Shown here piece after piece: positions 24,432-34,927 of a DNA stretch of 49,969 nucleotides; positions within the stretch are counted from its first letter, which is position 1, and every line of letters starts with the position of its first letter. The stretch comes from an uncultured Butyrivibrio sp. (GTDB lineage Bacteria > Bacillota > Clostridia > Lachnospirales > Lachnospiraceae). The notes beneath the pieces were generated by a model. The model had not been told where the DNA came from. It searched no databases and worked only from the letters and a program-made list of their open reading frames with translations. The DNA lies in the NCBI GenBank assembly GCA_946536145.1, contig CAMNEA010000013.1, forward strand, positions 1-49,969, in the 5' to 3' direction. The translations under genes were made by a program, and so were the position numbers.

Positions 24432-24698
24432 TTACTTTCTCAGACCGAGATCTGCTATAAGCTTACGATATGCCTCAATGTCTTTCTTCTTGAGGTAACC
24501 GAGAAGGCTACGTCTCTGTCCAACCATCTTAAGAAGACCTCTCCTTGAGTGGTGATCCTTAGGGTTCTTCTGAAGGTGCTCATTGAGCTCCTTGATCCTC
24601 TCTGTAAGGATTGCTACCTGAACCTCAGGTGAACCTGTGTCGCCGGCCTTTCTTGCAAACTTCTCGATAACTGCTGTTTTCTTTTCCTTTGTGATCAT
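24432..24698 (-). CDS. rpsO: 30S ribosomal protein S15
   Basis: 88 residues, exactly the usual S15 length. Sequence is canonical: [51 protein letters not shown]15 binds the central domain of 16S rRNA and nucleates platform assembly. ATG with AAAAGGAG. Its leader has a promoter at 24840-24868 and foldable sequence that could serve S15 autoregulation. Confidence 0.98.
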
Positions 24699-25990: not shown

Positions 25991-28900
25991 TCAGCCAAAA
26001 ATCCTCTCCATTACTATTTTGATGACATCCATCGTTCCAAAGATTCTATCCTCAACATCTTCCTGAATATTGATTCCATACTTCACAGACTTGAAGATAT
26101 TTACGCGCTTTAATGCCTGTCTCCACTTTTCATTGATGACATCACTCATGACATTTACAAAGTTGTCCGGAGCGCTCATATCTGCCCGCATCTCCTTTTT
26201 GGCATCGCCCTTTTTTCCTGTTGCAAGAAGAAGCGGCATGCGGATAGCTTCCATCAGGTTGTCAAGCAGCCTTTTTTCTTCATTCTCCTTCTGCCCTTTT
26301 TCATAAGCGATTCTCTTTTGTTCATTGGCAGTTTTCTTTTGTTCATCGACATTTTTCTTTTGTTCCTCGACAACTATCTTCTTTTCATCGGCATTTTTCT
26401 TTTTTTCGTCATCCTTAACAATATAACTGCGATATGCCTTAAATGCAACCTCTGCGCGTCTTCCGTACTGCGGATCGTTAAATATCTCCTTAAGTTCACG
26501 CTCTGCCTGATCAATATTCTTCTTATTAAGAAGCATATCCCTTGTCTGCTTCTCTATAGCAGTAATATCGATATAAGCTGACTTTCTCTTGAGCTTCTCC
26601 TCTTTCTCATCCGTAAGATTCTTTTTCAGTTCTTCAAATTGCCTAACCCTTTCAGGAATCTGACGGTCCTCTTCCGAGAGCTCATAATCTTCCAGCCGTT
26701 CGTTTAGCTCATAGGTAAGTGCAGAATCAATTACTTCATAGGCTATGTCGTGGTAGTTCTTTTTTGCCCTCTTTATACACTCTACAGCAGCCTTTGTGAG
26801 CCTTTCTATCTCAGCTTTATCTTTGCCCTCATCCTGAGCCTTGCGAAGCTCTTTTATGGCACCAACTACGTCAAAAGGCTTCATATAATCCCTCAGATCC
26901 TTTAATATCTCCTTTTTCTGCTCAACAGTCAGTGCTTCAAGTATTTTGGTATTGTCCTCATTAGTCTTTGCAGCATCCTTTTTTTCCGGCATTTTAATTC
27001 CGAATTTTTCAAAAGGTGCATACCACTCCTTTTTCCTTATGACTCTTTTTGCAGCCTGCTCGTAATTCATATCTATTGAGCCGGCATCGCCCAGGACTGT
27101 ATTTAAGAGTATCTCGTCTTCAAGCTTTATAAAATCATTAAAGCTGCCAAAGCCTCCGGCAAACAGATCGTCTACCCATTTTCTTCTCTCCGTGCTCGTA
27201 TCGGTGATAAGTGCAGCGAGATCATCATCATCGTCTGTGAGCATGGTCATTCTGATATTATCACTGCCGACGCTGTCAGTTGAAGCAACCTGTTCAAATC
27301 TCTGTTTGATCTTGAAAACAGTGGCATTCTGAGCACTTTCAATGAGTTTTATGGAGTTCTGTACCTCCATGATCTCCTTATTAAAAGAGTTGATGGTGTT
27401 CTGGACCCTGAGCTGGCACTGCTGGAAACCATAAATTGCAGGCGGAAGCTCAAATCCGATCTTCTGGGCCCGCACAAGTGCCGCGCCTATCCTCTCTGCG
27501 CTGGACTGATAATTTCCAAGCTTCATTACCTCATTGAATATGTCCTGAAGCTCTTTTCTCTTTTCTGACAAAAGAGTCTTAGACTCCTCGCTGAGCAGAG
27601 CTTCAAATCCCGTCATGAAGCCATCGCCGTTTCCTGCAGCAGCAGCCATGAGCATAAGTGTTATCTTTTCCCTCTGGAATTCATTGATCTTTGTCGCATT
27701 GCCGAAGTCAATGATAGTCAGGTGGCTGTCACTTAGCATGATATTTCCGGCGTGGAGATCTCCGTGGTAGTAGCCTTCGCCAAATACGGCTTCCGTTACC
27801 CACTTCTGTGCCATTTTGCAAAGGAGCTCCTGCTGATTACGAAGCACCAGAAGATGCTCGCTAAGCCTGGCCTTTATGCTCTGGATATCTGTTCCGGGAG
27901 CAATCTCGAGGACAGGGTTATCCCCTTTCATCATGATCCTGCCATTGCCGTCTTTCTTGTAAAATCCGCCTAGCAGCTCATCTCTTGTAGCCTTTGACTT
28001 TTTGAGAACGCCTACAACCGTATCGCCCTCAGCGCGGTTTACCATCATTGCATTGGGAGTCGGATTTGCAAGACGGCTGACACTCATCGCGGTTACGTTT
28101 CCGCTGTCATATATCTTTCCAAGCTCGCAGTTTCTTGCCTCTATCGTGAGGTCAAGCTCCTCTAGATATCTCTCCATCTGACCTGCATAGGTCTTGGCCA
28201 TTCCTTTTCCGGCATCCTTGGCACACTGCTCCATTATCTTTTTCTCGCGCAGCATGCGGTTTCGTACATCGGGTCTGAGGAGCTTTATAACAACCTCTTC
28301 CGGAATCTCTTTGCCCCTGGTATATACCTTGCACAAAAATGCCTGTCCCACCGATGCGGCACCGAGAGATTTTGTGATGGTTATCTTCCTTATCTGGCCA
28401 TCAGAGCGCTCAATAAGGGAAAGAAGCTGTGCCTCTACAATAGGCATAGGAATATCTGCAAGATTCTGCTTAATATCATCAAATGCATCCTCGAGTCCCT
28501 CGGGGATAAGTGATCCCGGCATTCCCTGAAGGAGTTTTTGAAGAAGCGGTCCTGCGCCCTTGAACATTCCTCCGACAAAGGGTGAGAGCGCCTTCATCTT
28601 TTCTTCTCTTGTGGCATCCTCAGGAATGTCTGAAGGCTTCATGTTGCGAAGCGCACTTGCAAGCATACTGCGGAGGTCTATCGCACTGCTCTTTGCAAAA
28701 TAGCTTGAGAGTACGTTTCTCAAAAACTGTCCTTCACCCTGCTCTCCGGCCATTGCATTATTGATCATGTTTGAAAGCTGCTCTGATCCCTTTTCAATAC
28801 GCTCGTGGCGCTCCTTTGCAGAAATGTTCTTTTCCTTATAATACTCAACCTTCTCGATCGGTATTTCCTGGCTCTGATCACCTATGTTGTCCTCAACATA

Positions 28901-31900
28901 TTCCATCATCAGATCCTGCATTCCCCTGAGAGTTCTGTGGACAGTGGTCTCAAAGTTCTTTTGAGCGTCCGTCACCTTCTTTACATATTCGTTGTCCTTG
29001 TCCTTTTCTGCTTCTTCAAACAGCTTGTTCATTCCGGCATTGAGAAGAAAAGCTTTATTGTCGGTAAAGATCCACTCATCTTCCTTTACCTGATCGTCGT
29101 ATCCTGCATCCTCTATCTCTTTTTCCCACTCTTTGTCCTGTTTTGCTTCCTCCTCAAGTCTCTTCTTCCTTGCCTCGTCCCTCTCTATGCGAAGCTTTGC
29201 AATTGGTGATGCTGCGACCGCGGGATCAAGCAAAGGCTCGTCATCTTCGTCATTTCCTCCGAAAGCAAAATTCCACATCTTGGAAAAGACGCTCTTATTT
29301 GCCTCTTTTTCCTTCTTTTCTTTTTCCTTTTTCTCCTTATCTTTCAGATACTCTTCGACAGCGACAGCCTCCTCGAGTTCGCCCATGTATCCAAAGTTTC
29401 TTTCGGTGTACTCCTCAAGGGCCTTTTTGTCCTCTTTGGCCTCCTCTTCTTCCCTCCTTTTATTCTCTTCAGCCCTCAGACGTTTTCTTTCTTCAATTTC
29501 AGCCTTCTTGGCTTCCTTTCTAAGCTGTCTTTGCCTGTTTCTCTCAGTAGCTTCCTTTCGCTTTTTCAGAATCTCCTTATCTACCATTGCGGTGATGGTA
29601 TCAAACCAGCTGCTTAGCTGATCGATCAGTTCATCCTTTTCTACGTCAAGTGCCTGAGTAGGGAGCTTTTCAACAAAATCAGCTATTATCTTCTTTGTCT
29701 TTTTCGGTTCGGTCACATATCCGATAAGCTTGCCGCTGTATTTCTTAAGTACGTTCCAAAGGTGCATTCCTGGATTTGCCTCGTTGTCCATATCCCAGGT
29801 GTTCTGTGCATAGATCACCTCCGTGATGATCTCCATCAGCTTGTCGCCCTCTTCTCCCCACAAGGATTCTTTTTTATTCTCTTCCTCCTCCCGCTTTATT
29901 CTTTCCTGTCTTTTCTGCCTTGTGGTAGCAAGCTGGGTAATATAGTCATTTAAATTCGTAATCTGCAGTTTTGTATCTTTGATCGATTTCTTTACTTCAC
30001 TGATAGAAGCTGTCTTGCTTGCTTTATCTTTAACAGCAAGGTTCAGCGCATCCTCAAGCTTGAGCCTTTCACCGAGCAGGGCAGAGAGATTCTCCAGCCT
30101 TTTCGTCTCTTTATCCGAGCGGTTCTTCTTAACAGAATTGTTGGCTTCTTCAAGGTCTATGGCAAACTCTTTCCAGAGCTTATCAATCTCAGCCCTGCCC
30201 TGCTTCTCGGTAAGGCTGCCTTTTTCCACCCTGGCCTTTACATCTGAAATATTAAACTTAAGGCTCTCAGTGAGGATCAGCTTCTCGCGGACATTAAAAT
30301 TGGACTCCTCATCCCAGGCGGACATTGCCCTCTTCCTGAGTTCAGCGCGCTCATTATACTGATCGGTAAGCTCCTTTTTGCGCTTATCGGCATGCTCCTT
30401 ATAATTCTTAGCTGCATCCTTGCCTTCGAGCTGCTTCTGTTTTTCGTCGATCTTAGCAATCTCATTTTCAAGCTCCTGCCTGTCAAGTTTATCCGCCTCC
30501 TCGAACATTTCTATGGCAGAACCAACTTTTTCAAACATCTGTGCCGATATGTCAGGCATCTTGAGGTTTCCATCTTCCGTGGCCTTATCAGCCTTTTCCT
30601 TGTTCTTTTCAAGTTCTTCCCTTATCCTGATGATCTGCGCTTCAAGATTTTCCACTTCATCAGTAAGCTTTTTCAGCTGATCTTCTGAAGCTTTTAATTT
30701 TGTCTCATTGTTTTTCTTATCATTCTCATACTTATCCTGTTTCTTTTTGTCGAGCACCTCATCATATACATCTGATTTGTCGATGAGCTCTTTCAGTGTC
30801 CCGTCTTTCTCGTGAAGCTGCCTAATGCGCAGAAGGTCAAGGGTATCAGCACCGTTGACGCGGATATCCGTAGTTTTTGTAAAATCATTCTCCTTGAGCT
30901 CTCTGATGTCTCCAGACAGTTCCCTGTATTCGTTAAGGATTTTCTCGCGGTATTCCCTCTTCTCTTCTTCGGCCTTAATCCTCGCCTCTTCTTCTATCCT
31001 CTCCTGATCAAGTTTTATCTTCCACTCACCAAAATTAAGCGGCACTTCCTTCTGCTCGTTGCCAAGACTGTCAAGAGCAGTAAAGCCCATTGGTGCTGAC
31101 ACATTTTTACTTGCCGTGGCTTTGTAGTAGTCCTTCCACTTAAGTAAAAGATCTCTTTCCTTTCTTATAAGGCTTCTTTCCCTCTCGGTATCAGCATCGT
31201 TCTTGTTTATTGCGCCGAGGAACTTAAGATTCTCTTCTCTGAAGGCTTCTTCGATCTTTACAAGATCTTCTGTAGCCTGCCTGCACTGGTACTTTTCCTC
31301 GAGTGCTGATAGCTTTTTTTCTGCCTTCTGATCATAATCGTCAAGCAGCAGATTTATGCTGGTTTGTATTTGCTGCTCATAGTCTGAGTATTCTTCTCTT
31401 ACCTGCTTCTCAATATCACTCTTTCTCTTTGCAAGCTCCTTCTCAAGCTCAGACTTGTGATTGCCATAGCGCTCTTTCAGAGTTTCAAGGTTATTCTCAA
31501 GATCCTCCTCTATTCTGAATGCAGCATTGGTTTTGATGCAATTTTCCAGATTTTCAAGCGCCTTCGCTTTATTTTCAAGATACTTTTTGCTTACAGCATC
31601 TCTCTCATTCCTGCTCTTTTCTGCTTCCTTGTTGTAGTTTGCGATCCTCTCTTCAAGGGCCTTTTTATCATCTTCAAGCTTCTGAACAGCATCCTTGTAC
31701 GCCTTAGTGATTTCCTGCTCCTTCTTGAAGTTCTCGTCGTAGATATCATCATAGGACTTGTTGAGGCTGAGCTCATATTCGATGACCCCTGCAGGGTATT
31801 CAATCTGAATCTGCTCCTGCGGCTGAGCCTGCTGAACCTGTGGCTGCTGAGCCTGATTCTGCAGATTCAGGTTCTGCTGTTCCTGAGGCTGCTGATTCAG

Positions 31901-33919
31901 GTTCTGCTGTTCCTGAGGCTGCTGATTCAGATTCTGCTGATTCAGATTCTGCTGTTCCTGAGGCTGCTGATTCAGGTTCTGCTGTTCCTGAGGCTGCTGA
32001 TTCAGATTCTGCTGTTCCTGAGGCTGCTGATTCAGATTCTGCTGTTCCTGAGGCTGCTGATTCTGGTTCTGCTGTTCCTGAGGCTGCTGATTCTGGTTCA
32101 GCTGAGCCTGTTCTTCCTTCGGCTGTTCCTGCTTGTCCTGATTCTGCAGCTGAACCTGCTGATTTTGTAGCTGAATCTGCTGATTCTGCGGCTGTTCAAC
32201 CTGGTTCTGTTGTTCCAGGTTCTGCTGGTTCTGCTGCTCATTGTGCTGCTCGTCCTGAACCTGATTCTGTGGCTGAACCTGCTCTACTTTCGGCTGCTGA
32301 GCCTTTTTCTGCTCCTCCTGAGCCTGTTTCTGTCTTTCCTTCTCGAGTTTCTCTTTTAGCTTCTCTTCCTCTCTCTTTTTCTTTCTCTCCTGCTTCTCTA
32401 ATTCTCTATAGTGCTTATCCATCTCCTCGATGCTTCCAAAATTCTCATAATGAGCCTCAATGTTAAGCTCGCGGATCCTGCTCTCTTTTTCTGTGATCTC
32501 CTTTTTGCGCTCCGTGCGCTCACCCTTCCTGTCAATGTACTCATAGTTTTTGATCTTCTTTACAGCATCTTCTGTTGAGACAGCTTTGCTCTCAATATCA
32601 CTGGCGAGCTTGATAAGGAACTCATCACTGATATTGGTCATATCAGTATTGGCTACGCCAAGTCTCGTTCTCAGAAGTACTTTGGCAAGCTCGGAAGAGC
32701 GGTTCCTGTCAAGGAACTTCATGTTCGGATCATTCTTCATTCCGCGAAGGATCTTTTTCGTGTTGTCTTCGCCAAAGACCTTCTCATTCTCTATCATGTT
32801 GACGCCCATCTGGTGTGCAAGCTGGTGGGCAGTTATATTCAGGTTTTCAGTCTTGAACTTCACCTTTGCCTCTCCGGCATAGGTCTCCCTGTAAGTGAAG
32901 CCAAAGTCAAGCGTGTTGTCTTCTTTCTGGAAAAGATTGACAACATAGTCTCCCACAACAAAGGAAGCGCTGGCAAAGGTATTGTCCCTGAATCTTGCAA
33001 GAGTATCCCTAAGACCGATAAGCAACTGCTTTACGGCTTTCTTTTCCTTATTGTTGCTTCCGTATTGATTTATCAGAGCATCAGGAACAAAGGTCATATG
33101 AATAGCGTCGTAAAACATTTTGACATCCTTATTCATATCCCTTATATCGCTGTTCTGCAGACCACTGAAATGATCTGAATATACCTTTAATCTATCTTCT
33201 CTGGTTTCATAGTCCTGCACCTGTTCCTTTGTCACATCCCCGTGATTCTCGCAGTAAACAGTTGCTTCTACAATGAGATCCCTTATTGTCTTTGGATCTT
33301 TTCCTATAAATCCCCTGAAAGCCATCTGCTTTGCGAAATTTATGCTGTTGAGCTCATCGAGGAGCTGTGACATCTTATCGCGAACCAGATTGTAGCGCTC
33401 TACCCCCTTGGATGATCCCGGGTTCTTTCCCTTAAGATAGTTTTTACAGGCAGCTATTGCGTCCTGGTAGAGGATAACAGTATTTTCCAGGGTCAGCGCC
33501 CTGTTTCTTGCCAAGTACTTTGGCGAATTCTTTTTGACATCCTCGGCGTAAGGCTTCTGTATTTCAAGTTCAACCTTCCCAACAGCTTCCTTTACCTTGA
33601 ACATAAGGTCAGAATCCTTGCGGTACCTGTTGTTGTTTAGAAGCATCTGCGCGAGGTTTCTTCCTCTCATGGACTCAAGCTTTGCCTTCTTTGAGACATC
33701 AAGCTTGAACTCAGCGGAATTCTTCAGAGCATATCCGATGAGTTTATTTTCATATTCTGCCCTCTTTACGCTCTCGGCAGCTGTATCCTTCTGATTGTCC
33801 TCATACTTTTGAGGCTTGAATGAGTAGTAGGGGTTTTCGTTTTTCTCAAAGTCAGTCAGTTCGCGTGTCTGTTCATTGATCCTGGTCATGTTTTTTTCTT
33901 CGAACTTCAGATAATCCAT
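25991..33919 (-). CDS. Giant coiled-coil protein with UbiB/ABC1 (ADCK)-like kinase domain
   Basis: 2642 residues, ATG with AGGAGG 6 bases upstream; no signal peptide or clear membrane helix. Layout: unrecognised mostly helical N-terminus (1-500), Lys/Glu coiled coil, Gln-rich tandem-repeat segment (about 537-705), very long charged coiled coils (720-1640), then an ADCK-like kinase (about 1690-2130), then more Lys/Glu helices with short EQKK-type repeats near 2510-2545. Kinase residues seen: Lys1787 in a degenerate KxGQ-like stretch (KGAGPLLQKLL), Ala-rich nucleotide loop GAASVGQ (1853-1859), ATP Lys1879 (VVIKLLRP), EARN, catalytic HGDLHAGN (His2052, Asp2054, Asn2059) and DFG Asp2071. The catalytic set looks intact. 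Classic UbiB proteins (~550 residues) support quinone synthesis; nothing here suggests that. Followed by the GNAT gene; both sit between ribF and rpsO. Confidence 0.85.
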   Translation of the reverse strand: MDYLKFEEKNMTRINEQTRELTDFEKNENPYYSFKPQKYEDNQKDTAAESVKRAEYENKLIGYALKNSAEFKLDVSKKAKLESMRGRNLAQMLLNNNRYRKDSDLMFKVKEAVGKVELEIQKPYAEDVKKNSPKYLARNRALTLENTVILYQDAIAACKNYLKGKNPGSSKGVERYNLVRDKMSQLLDELNSINFAKQMAFRGFIGKDPKTIRDLIVEATVYCENHGDVTKEQVQDYETREDRLKVYSDHFSGLQNSDIRDMNKDVKMFYDAIHMTFVPDALINQYGSNNKEKKAVKQLLIGLRDTLARFRDNTFASASFVVGDYVVNLFQKEDNTLDFGFTYRETYAGEAKVKFKTENLNITAHQLAHQMGVNMIENEKVFGEDNTKKILRGMKNDPNMKFLDRNRSSELAKVLLRTRLGVANTDMTNISDEFLIKLASDIESKAVSTEDAVKKIKNYEYIDRKGERTERKKEITEKESRIRELNIEAHYENFGSIEEMDKHYRELEKQERKKKREEEKLKEKLEKERQKQAQEEQKKAQQPKVEQVQPQNQVQDEQHNEQQNQQNLEQQNQVEQPQNQQIQLQNQQVQLQNQDKQEQPKEEQAQLNQNQQPQEQQNQNQQPQEQQNLNQQPQEQQNLNQQPQEQQNLNQQPQEQQNLNQQNLNQQPQEQQNLNQQPQEQQNLNLQNQAQQPQVQQAQPQEQIQIEYPAGVIEYELSLNKSYDDIYDENFKKEQEITKAYKDAVQKLEDDKKALEERIANYNKEAEKSRNERDAVSKKYLENKAKALENLENCIKTNAAFRIEEDLENNLETLKERYGNHKSELEKELAKRKSDIEKQVREEYSDYEQQIQTSINLLLDDYDQKAEKKLSALEEKYQCRQATEDLVKIEEAFREENLKFLGAINKNDADTERERSLIRKERDLLLKWKDYYKATASKNVSAPMGFTALDSLGNEQKEVPLNFGEWKIKLDQERIEEEARIKAEEEKREYREKILNEYRELSGDIRELKENDFTKTTDIRVNGADTLDLLRIRQLHEKDGTLKELIDKSDVYDEVLDKKKQDKYENDKKNNETKLKASEDQLKKLTDEVENLEAQIIRIREELEKNKEKADKATEDGNLKMPDISAQMFEKVGSAIEMFEEADKLDRQELENEIAKIDEKQKQLEGKDAAKNYKEHADKRKKELTDQYNERAELRKRAMSAWDEESNFNVREKLILTESLKFNISDVKARVEKGSLTEKQGRAEIDKLWKEFAIDLEEANNSVKKNRSDKETKRLENLSALLGERLKLEDALNLAVKDKASKTASISEVKKSIKDTKLQITNLNDYITQLATTRQKRQERIKREEEENKKESLWGEEGDKLMEIITEVIYAQNTWDMDNEANPGMHLWNVLKKYSGKLIGYVTEPKKTKKIIADFVEKLPTQALDVEKDELIDQLSSWFDTITAMVDKEILKKRKEATERNRQRQLRKEAKKAEIEERKRLRAEENKRREEEEAKEDKKALEEYTERNFGYMGELEEAVAVEEYLKDKEKKEKEKKEKEANKSVFSKMWNFAFGGNDEDDEPLLDPAVAASPIAKLRIERDEARKKRLEEEAKQDKEWEKEIEDAGYDDQVKEDEWIFTDNKAFLLNAGMNKLFEEAEKDKDNEYVKKVTDAQKNFETTVHRTLRGMQDLMMEYVEDNIGDQSQEIPIEKVEYYKEKNISAKERHERIEKGSEQLSNMINNAMAGEQGEGQFLRNVLSSYFAKSSAIDLRSMLASALRNMKPSDIPEDATREEKMKALSPFVGGMFKGAGPLLQKLLQGMPGSLIPEGLEDAFDDIKQNLADIPMPIVEAQLLSLIERSDGQIRKITITKSLGAASVGQAFLCKVYTRGKEIPEEVVIKLLRPDVRNRMLREKKIMEQCAKDAGKGMAKTYAGQMERYLEELDLTIEARNCELGKIYDSGNVTAMSVSRLANPTPNAMMVNRAEGDTVVGVLKKSKATRDELLGGFYKKDGNGRIMMKGDNPVLEIAPGTDIQSIKARLSEHLLVLRNQQELLCKMAQKWVTEAVFGEGYYHGDLHAGNIMLSDSHLTIIDFGNATKINEFQREKITLMLMAAAAGNGDGFMTGFEALLSEESKTLLSEKRKELQDIFNEVMKLGNYQSSAERIGAALVRAQKIGFELPPAIYGFQQCQLRVQNTINSFNKEIMEVQNSIKLIESAQNATVFKIKQRFEQVASTDSVGSDNIRMTMLTDDDDDLAALITDTSTERRKWVDDLFAGGFGSFNDFIKLEDEILLNTVLGDAGSIDMNYEQAAKRVIRKKEWYAPFEKFGIKMPEKKDAAKTNEDNTKILEALTVEQKKEILKDLRDYMKPFDVVGAIKELRKAQDEGKDKAEIERLTKAAVECIKRAKKNYHDIAYEVIDSALTYELNERLEDYELSEEDRQIPERVRQFEELKKNLTDEKEEKLKRKSAYIDITAIEKQTRDMLLNKKNIDQAERELKEIFNDPQYGRRAEVAFKAYRSYIVKDDEKKKNADEKKIVVEEQKKNVDEQKKTANEQKRIAYEKGQKENEEKRLLDNLMEAIRMPLLLATGKKGDAKKEMRADMSAPDNFVNVMSDVINEKWRQALKRVNIFKSVKYGINIQEDVEDRIFGTMDVIKIVMERIFG
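31860..32100 (-). repeat. 30-bp in-frame tandem repeats encoding a Gln/Asn/Pro-rich tract
   Basis: About 7-8 copies of a 30-bp unit (leftward coding QPQEQQNLNQ) with near-identical DNA; one copy has an extra 15 bp. The unit length is a multiple of three, so copy-number change would keep the frame. It forms the core of the Gln-rich segment of the giant protein. The rightward translation of the same DNA looks like a Ser/Ala/Asp repeat protein, but it is only the antisense shadow. Confidence 0.9.
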
Positions 33920-34015: not shown

Positions 34016-34927
34016 TCATCTGCCCCTGGCATTTAAAAGGTCGCTTGCAATCTGCTTTTTAAGACTCTCAATCCCGTCAAACTTCATCTCCGGTCTTACA
34101 AATTTCAGCAGTTCCACCTTAATGAACTTCCCATAGATGTCACTGTCAAAATCATATATATAGGTCTCGACTCCTACCCTCTCTTTTTCTGAAATAGTAG
34201 GTTTTCTCCCAACGTTGGTCATCCCGTCGAACGCAGCTCCGTCTACATGCACCCGGCTGGCATAGACGCCATAGGGAGGAAGGAGTTTATCATCGGGAGG
34301 CATAACATTGACCGTAGGGATCCCGATGGTAGTCCCGATATGCCTTCCGTGCTCAACCGGTCCGCTTACACTGTAGTTTTCCCCCAGAAGTCTTGCTGCC
34401 ATCGCCATATTCCCGTCTGATACTTCGTTGCGGATCCTTGTGGAACTGACTTCACTGCCATCAATCCTCACCTTGTCTATCAGTTCAAGCTCGTACCCCA
34501 TCTTTTTTGAAAGGCTCTTCAGAAGATGCCTGTCGCCTCTTCCCTTATAGCCGAAGGTTACGTCTGTCCCTGCCGCGATATAATCTGCCCCTATCTGCTG
34601 AACAAGTATCCTCTTAACAAAATCTTCCGGAGCGGTTGCTGCCGTCTCCTCTGTCAGCGGAAATTCAATAAGTATATCTATGCCGAGCTCTTTGAAGGCT
34701 CTCCTCTTCTCGTCCTTCGTAAACAGCTGCCTTACGGTATGGCCTGTGAAAAACTCCTCAGGTGAAGGGTCAAAGGTAAAGACCACGCTCTTCATGTTGT
34801 CGGCCTTCTGCCCGAGGATGTAGGAAAGCAGCTTCCTGTGCCCCAGATGTATCCCGTCAAATTTGCCTATGGCAACTGCGTTTTTTCCCTCAATATGAAA
34901 CTTTGTTGTATCTGTGATTATCTGCAT
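34016..34927 (-). CDS. ribF: Bifunctional riboflavin kinase / FAD synthetase
   Basis: 303 residues. N-terminal FAD synthetase (nucleotidyltransferase) with GKFDGIHLGHRKLL and 'VSSTRIRNEVSDGNMAMAARLLG'; C-terminal riboflavin kinase with VEHGRHIGTTIGIPTVN and 'PPYGVYASRVHVDG', ending in 'ETYIYDFDSDIYGKFIKVELLKFVRPEMKF'. It makes FMN and FAD from riboflavin. Starts 17 bases after truB, in the conserved truB-ribF pair. In relatives I would expect rpsO next; here the giant gene and its GNAT partner intervene. The spacer 33920-34015 shows no clear terminator. Confidence 0.96.
   Translation of the reverse strand: MQIITDTTKFHIEGKNAVAIGKFDGIHLGHRKLLSYILGQKADNMKSVVFTFDPSPEEFFTGHTVRQLFTKDEKRRAFKELGIDILIEFPLTEETAATAPEDFVKRILVQQIGADYIAAGTDVTFGYKGRGDRHLLKSLSKKMGYELELIDKVRIDGSEVSSTRIRNEVSDGNMAMAARLLGENYSVSGPVEHGRHIGTTIGIPTVNVMPPDDKLLPPYGVYASRVHVDGAAFDGMTNVGRKPTISEKERVGVETYIYDFDSDIYGKFIKVELLKFVRPEMKFDGIESLKKQIASDLLNARGR

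Follow-up and report, generated by a model that had tools for sequence, protein, structure and literature searches.

The locus described here raises the question of what a UbiB-like kinase core does inside a bacterial protein of very large size. UbiB kinases are an ancient family tied to quinone biology, whose chemistry, that of a kinase or of an ATPase, is debated. Both the debate and the link to quinones are covered in PMC4718504, which also gives the catalytic Lys and the HxDxHxGN, DxG and ExD motifs as family features. The stretch of DNA analysed, hereafter the window, is 49,969 nucleotides long and belongs to a 2.9 Mb genome that is 73% complete. A preliminary description had placed a giant protein on this stretch, and this was confirmed by the occurrence of one open reading frame with an ATG start on the minus strand (Table 1).

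The neighbouring genes in the window were assigned by Pfam to infB, rbfA, an nrnA-like gene, truB, ribF and pnp, a run that we take to be the translation region commonly extending from nusA-infB to pnp. The spacing between ribF and pnp was about 590-680 bp in 5 of 15 relatives for which the surroundings of ribF were retrieved, while pnp lay outside the retrieved stretch in the other 10; the giant gene and the GNAT-like partner gene that follows it therefore seem to have been inserted between ribF and rpsO. In agreement with the preliminary description, no quinone gene was detected among the 8 window proteins scanned with Pfam and NCBIfam.

Table 1. Coordinates of the giant protein gene, its regions and motifs, and the adjoining genes in the window; residue numbers are those of the giant protein.
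Feature	Position	Strand	Remarks
ribF, upstream border	34016..34927	-	PF06574 and PF01687 matches
Giant protein gene	25991..33919	-	Single 2,642-aa ORF, ATG start
N1 domain, residues 41-300	33020..33799	-	Helical; in 66/88 giants or giant fragments
Gln/Asn-rich repeat tract, residues 561-760	31640..32239	-	37% Q, 14% N
Highly charged region, residues 761-1690	28850..31639	-	41-49% DEKR in sub-blocks
ABC1/UbiB-like kinase core with N-terminal extension, residues 1691-2210	27290..28849	-	PF03109
K1795-L-L-Q1798, probable KxGQ equivalent	28526..28537	-	K and Q 80/80 aligned
GAAS loop, residues 1853-1856, counterpart of UbiB AAAS	28352..28363	-	G 80, A 79, A 80, S 78 of 80
beta3 Lys1879	28283..28285	-	80/80 aligned
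Catalytic Asp2054 (HGDLHAGN)	27758..27760	-	80/80 aligned
Metal-binding Asp2071 (DFGN)	27707..27709	-	80/80 aligned
C-terminal region, residues 2211-2642	25994..27289	-	Similar in nearest giants only
GNAT partner gene, 310 aa	25055..25987	-	3 bp after giant; GNAT in N-terminal half
rpsO (S15), downstream border of the inserted pair	24432..24698	-	S15 recognised by eye

Kinase core and other regions of the giant protein

The core region matched PF03109 (ABC1) with 62 bits (E 6.2e-17, cut-off 22.9), and the cut-off was exceeded by all eight giant cores scanned. Scans of the whole protein returned a weak APH match alone from Pfam, and a TIGR01982 (UbiB) match together with a weak Bud32 match from NCBIfam; the TIGR01982 score of 55.9 bits fell short of the equivalog cut-off for canonical UbiB, 487.55 bits. 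The solved structures nearest to the fold of the core were those of the UbiB family, with COQ8A/ADCK3 and UbiB/AarF (PF03109) giving the best structural match.

The core of the window protein was then aligned with 79 relatives, two near-copies and one further core (L103) having been left out of the 82 available. K1879, E1921, H2052, D2054, N2059 and D2071 were each conserved in 80/80 sequences and D1923 of the ExD motif (ELD) in 78/80. As 79 of the 80 cores had been retrieved by patterns covering HGDLH or GAASVGQ, the conservation of these two motifs is partly circular; K1879, D2071, E1921, K1795 and Q1798 lie outside the search patterns. The ADCK/UbiB core with intact catalytic residues proposed for the giant withstood this comparison, with a PF03109 score above the cut-off and His2052, Asp2054 and Asp2071 kept in the homologues.

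Like COQ8A/ADCK3 and UbiB/AarF, the giant shows a protein-kinase-like fold with a helical N-terminal extension, a loop of the Ala-rich type and the ExD (ELD), HxDxHxGN and DxG motifs. It differs from them in carrying GAAS for AAAS and Kx(L/M/V)Q, after which comes a Gly in nearly all cases, and in having its core embedded in a large protein which is associated with contractile injection systems (CIS) and has no evident membrane helix. The literal AAAS loop is absent, its first position being Gly in 80/80 aligned cores. The literal KxGQ motif is also missing from the 80 aligned cores, in which Lys and Gln are invariant and the Gly is replaced by Leu (57), Met (22) or Val (1), in a register inferred from the COQ8A alignment. 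That structural alignment, for which ranges only are given, begins at model position 104, corresponding to COQ8A 258, and K276, which we take to be the Lys of the COQ8A KxGQ motif, would fall on model position 122, that is K1795, if no gap intervenes. KxGQ had previously been placed at KGAGPLLQ (1787-1794); K1795-L-L-Q1798-G, with its invariant Lys and Gln, is the better candidate and probably the true equivalent. If so, the inhibitory-type Lys and Gln of the UbiB family would be retained in a different motif.

Outside the core, N1 is a helical bundle with no clear relative among solved structures. The Gln-rich repeat tract reported earlier was recovered by composition and coincides with 30-bp tandem repeats located within 31829-32110. 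A coiled coil exceeding 900 residues, as suggested earlier, could not be established, as the charged region yielded 87/930 residues marked by a crude heptad score, versus 0 in one shuffle. Residues 2211-2642 had no Pfam match, and a phmmer search with them returned 9 rows including the query itself, 7 of them distinct. The description of the giant as cytosolic agrees with its lack of an evident membrane helix, the best hydropathy value over 19 residues being 0.94.

Distribution of the giants and their GNAT-like partner

Relatives were collected by a pattern-seeded scan of GTDB representatives, which gave 241 matching stretches, the best 80 of which were kept and represented 78 distinct loci. 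Nearly all of these best 80 of 241 came from Lachnospiraceae, Eubacterium, Clostridiales or unnamed MAGs; many of the loci bore a rumen or ruminant gut label, and Butyrivibrio sp. FCS014 and Lachnospiraceae bacterium XBB2008 were not labelled as MAGs. The former, which is in culture, carries two giants together with a CIS tube gene. The proteins carrying the core were mostly about 1,100-2,740 aa long. Giants were found by protein search in 13 of the 79 genomes of the genus, and also occurred in 10 of 397 sampled Lachnospiraceae genomes, these 10 spanning 9 genera. The giants are a patchy, multi-copy family, mainly of rumen-type Lachnospiraceae. Six genomes contributed three or four copies each to the core tree, and supported branches require three to four separate placements of the copies in RUG12564, RUG14282 and Tb.RUG.371. 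The SUG50 copies clustered (2/500 shuffles as low), and all six multi-copy groups together required 12 changes against a shuffled mean of 15.7, so that copies are somewhat clustered. Neighbouring copies were seen at a few loci (L068, L123, L127 and L133).

A 1,102-aa relative without N1 was encoded in the gammaproteobacterium Succinatimonas hippei (L136:2818-6126), with no GNAT partner within three genes. Its flanks look proteobacterial by eye, which suggests transfer between phyla. This relative has a hydrophobic stretch in its N-terminus and its genome gave no match to the CIS tube; it may use another route. Among phage and plasmid records none carried the giant core at E<=1e-5, and viral contigs returned two weak matches and no others.

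The partner belongs to a family of about 300 aa with GNAT matches in the N-terminal half. The window partner matched PF00583 with 29.5 bits (cut-off 20.7), and a GNAT cut-off was passed by 3 of 10 partner-type neighbours from other loci, in the N-terminal half only. Neighbours were counted at 83 loci, after removal of 11 duplicate loci, on gene maps drawn by a longest-ORF rule that missed at least one partner gene (in G014). The partner lay immediately downstream on the same strand for 52 of the 80 giants with a called downstream gene, and 51 of these 52 overlapped the giant or started within 70 bp of it. It was present within three genes of 66/80 giants and absent from that range in 14/80. 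Over 32 loci the divergence of partner and kinase was correlated (Mantel r 0.38, reached in 0/2000 permutations). The partner sequences have drifted apart more quickly, to a median identity of 0.21, than the kinases, whose median is 0.43.

Contractile injection systems and sister large proteins

Secretion systems were examined by genome co-occurrence, using the gp19-type tube protein (PF06841) as the CIS marker. The tube was detected in 26 of the 79 genus genomes, with one match in each, and occurred in 13/13 giant-bearing genomes and in 13/66 of the others (Fisher 3.9e-8). The partner family, present in 27/79, showed the same association, with a tube in 24/27 genomes with the partner and in 2/52 without it (Fisher 7.5e-15). 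When the genus was restricted to the 47 genomes with a completeness of 90% or more and a contamination of 5% or less, 7 had the tube and 3 the giant, all three among the seven. The 397 Lachnospiraceae, for which giant and tube counts were taken as one genome set since the labels agree, included 43 tube-bearing genomes, namely 8 of the 10 with a giant and 35 of the other 387 (Fisher 3.9e-7, or 2.9e-6 without the genome of the window). All these Fisher tests treat genomes as independent and ignore shared ancestry and genome completeness.

Of 42 genomes reached through giant loci, chosen by hand to represent different genomes and partly overlapping the 397, 36 contained the tube. The six lacking it were Succinatimonas hippei and five others. 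In the sample of 397, the two genomes with a giant and no tube match were G262 and G429, with a recorded completeness of 99% and 97%. In the genus, G017, G089 and G099 (completeness 99% for G089 and G099) had the partner family and no tube; G025 and G031 had the tube and, at the threshold used, no partner family. YukC, for type VII secretion, gave no match over the cut-off in the co-occurrence test.

Physical linkage was strongest in SUG1317 (L221-L222), where a giant of 2,005 aa, a partner of 341 aa and an 82-aa ORF are followed on one strand by CIS genes that include Pvc16, sheath and tube. In L105 a CIS-type AAA ATPase, which shares 69% identity with one next to another CIS, precedes a giant and its partner by about 3.5 kb. 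The genome of the window has a CIS cluster on contig C37, with matches to Pvc16_N, sheath, gp19 tube, CIS_tube, Phage_base_V (spike), GPW_gp25 and Baseplate_J, and its giant is on a different contig, C13. When the CIS stretches of seven genomes were fetched by tube position, the kinase core was found in 0/7, the partner in 3/7 (4/7 with the G014 protein-search match) and N1 in 2/7. By a hand tally, partner and tube were within 50 kb on the same contig in 10 of the 24 genomes with both; in G074 the partner genes are about 21 and 30 kb from the tube on a 3.6-Mb contig. The CIS clusters of these Gram-positive bacteria (L203, L204-L205, L210-L212 and L222) also encode a protein of about 690 aa, which in L222 matches the outer membrane efflux family OEP (23 bits, cut-off 22), and proteins of about 935-1,470 aa with a signal-like hydrophobic start as judged by eye; together these give a hint of an envelope-anchored machine.

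Several other large proteins surround the giants. N1 was found without a kinase in 14 neighbouring ORFs, some of them cut or short, and the genome of the window has six N1 matches in five frames, that of the giant included. Other N1 proteins of this genome are at L185:5476-11532, L186:2718-6584 and L187:4851-6350, each adjoined by a GNAT-like gene (weak for L186). A scan of 22 large neighbours gave three matches to calpain C2 protease, two of them over the cut-off; these proteins lie next to or near kinase giants (L122:13532-17470, L118:14631-16766 and L077:2398-6591, the third being below the cut-off).

A recurrent type carries a FAM20C-like kinase domain. At E<=0.1 Pfam recognised the domain in 4 of the 6 members, with a best score of 28.0 bits vs 26.8, and FAM20C in the PDB was matched with an E of 9.8e-5; two of eight candidates were left out of the alignment of this type because they aligned poorly. 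The FAM20C-like proteins share the neighbourhoods of the giants, several have N1, and they would represent a second kinase-like payload type, although the domain, with its weak FAM20C match, belongs to a kinase family different from the ABC1 core. One stretch (L188-L189, G408:C4:60001-92000) holds a run of large N1 proteins, several of them FAM20C-like, and three GNAT-like genes, besides genes for a SpoIIE phosphatase and a STAS protein that flank a gene of 141 aa.

Possible roles of the giant protein

The ABC1 fold, the conserved catalytic residues, the operon-like pairing with a GNAT gene, the CIS co-occurrence, some CIS linkage and the sister enzymes are all computed results. As relatives are found mostly in CIS-bearing genomes, the giant is probably CIS cargo and not a quinone enzyme. 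The reading that we favour, at a probability of about 0.58, makes the giant an effector kinase belonging to a Gram-positive CIS, for which the GNAT protein would act as adaptor or modifier. Every step beyond being encoded with a CIS is one that we infer. In such a scheme rumen-type Lachnospiraceae, which are Gram-positive, would load the giant into their CIS and deliver it, and recognition, loading and passage would depend on the N-terminal domain and the long charged and repeat regions. The ABC1/UbiB-like domain would be the catalytic payload, predicted to act in a target cell as an ATP-dependent kinase or ATPase, and the GNAT-like protein might help to select the cargo as a cognate adaptor, chaperone or modifying enzyme. 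The sister large proteins with unrelated enzyme domains and the several divergent copies per genome were counted in favour of an effector repertoire, and the correlated divergence of partner and kinase likewise speaks for this reading. Counted against it were the SpoIIE excess and the STAS genes treated below, the lack of a loading signal recognisable by eye, the separate contigs of giant and CIS in the genome of the window, the seven fetched CIS stretches without a kinase core, and the genomes in which giant or partner and tube occur apart. A wider picture, in which rumen-type Lachnospiraceae possess a CIS with modular giant effectors (UbiB-like, FAM20C-like and calpain-like), many with a GNAT-like adaptor and possibly directed against eukaryotic neighbours, for instance rumen ciliates, is offered tentatively and is somewhat doubtful.

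Known CIS cargoes offer partial precedents. Afp18 of the antifeeding prophage is, according to PMC4518317, a very long cargo with residues up to 2,123 named for Y. ruckeri. By that description the giant resembles it in its length and in having a catalytic domain, whereas the catalytic part of Afp18 is a glycosyltransferase at the C-terminal end rather than an ABC1 kinase. In the Photorhabdus virulence cassette, a CIS with an AAA ATPase, N-terminal signals serve to load the payloads, which Pvc15 loads (PMC11495950). The AAA ATPase adjoining the giant in L105 is similar in this respect. In 72 N-termini of giants read by eye no signal of the payload type and no common loading signal was recognised; most giants are instead accompanied by the GNAT-like partner.

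The main rival to cargo status is a giant that regulates the CIS, scaffolds its assembly or acts as a baseplate or envelope accessory, its kinase controlling firing or assembly together with SpoIIE and STAS proteins. SpoIIE genes near giants numbered 19 against about 1.75 expected, an approximate excess since the observed count derives from BLAST clusters and the expected one from the Pfam rate in 9 genomes. STAS genes occur next to giants as well as within the CIS operon, so that a regulatory role is conceivable, and in SUG1317 the CIS genes come directly downstream of the giant. However, 13 of the 26 tube-bearing genus genomes, many of them incomplete, had no giant match, and the giant thus seems dispensable for the machine; some genomes have several divergent giants and one tube match each, and the sister proteins carry unrelated enzymes. 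We consider this role unlikely.

A signalling kinase of the cytosol that acts as a scaffold or forms filaments, much as the preliminary description had it, would have nothing to do with the CIS and would share habitat and clade with CIS carriers. Such a protein would suit the lack of an evident membrane helix, the low-complexity and charged regions and the insertion of the window pair in a translation operon. It leaves aside the co-occurrence across the family, seen in 8 of 10 giant genomes with 9 genera among the 10, and the direct linkage in SUG1317 and L105, and it appears improbable. The earlier proposal of a scaffold for envelope, stress or phage response found no positive evidence, the five proteins compared with PADLOC models having matched 0 families and no relative having emerged from phage or plasmid records at E<=1e-5; co-occurrence and linkage point instead to a role tied to the CIS.

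The same PADLOC and phage or plasmid results, with the two weak viral-contig matches, weigh against an intracellular conflict system (toxin-antitoxin or anti-phage) composed of the kinase giant and the GNAT protein. Patchiness, some tandem copies and the fast divergence of the partner would fit such a system, but the CIS association would be left unexplained, making it very improbable. A quinone or isoprenoid-lipid enzyme like COQ8/UbiB with added domains would fit the common fold family. Given the lack of quinone genes among the 8 window proteins scanned, the score far under the UbiB equivalog cut-off, the patchy and sometimes multi-copy distribution and the lack of an evident membrane helix, it is hardly credible.

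No injected effector built on the UbiB kinase fold is known to us. If the wider picture outlined above holds, the giant would be the first such case, together with a new class of effector adaptor. If the CIS link is true, the UbiB fold would have been reused for cell-cell interaction, in a form with no evident membrane helix, and mostly uncultured rumen bacteria would possess a protein-delivery system with a large set of candidate effectors. A Legionella ADCK-UbiB-ABC1 kinase is counted among non-effectors in the available part of PMC9758233, and the accessible text of PMC11297309 (eCIS toxins) and of PMC12210884 (CIS in metagenomes) names neither Lachnospiraceae nor Firmicutes. Literature searches, which left subscription papers and preprints outside their range, found nothing on contractile injection in Butyrivibrio; a search on rumen and contractile injection gave nothing on this topic by title, and one on a UbiB atypical kinase in Lachnospiraceae gave no literature. 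For CIS effectors in Lachnospiraceae, the term for the system was met once, in a reference list.

Finally, small ORFs with a leader of the double-glycine type (TGG or SGG, by eye) were observed near giants or partners at L057:7549-7794, L201:9271-9510 and L198:12254-12583.
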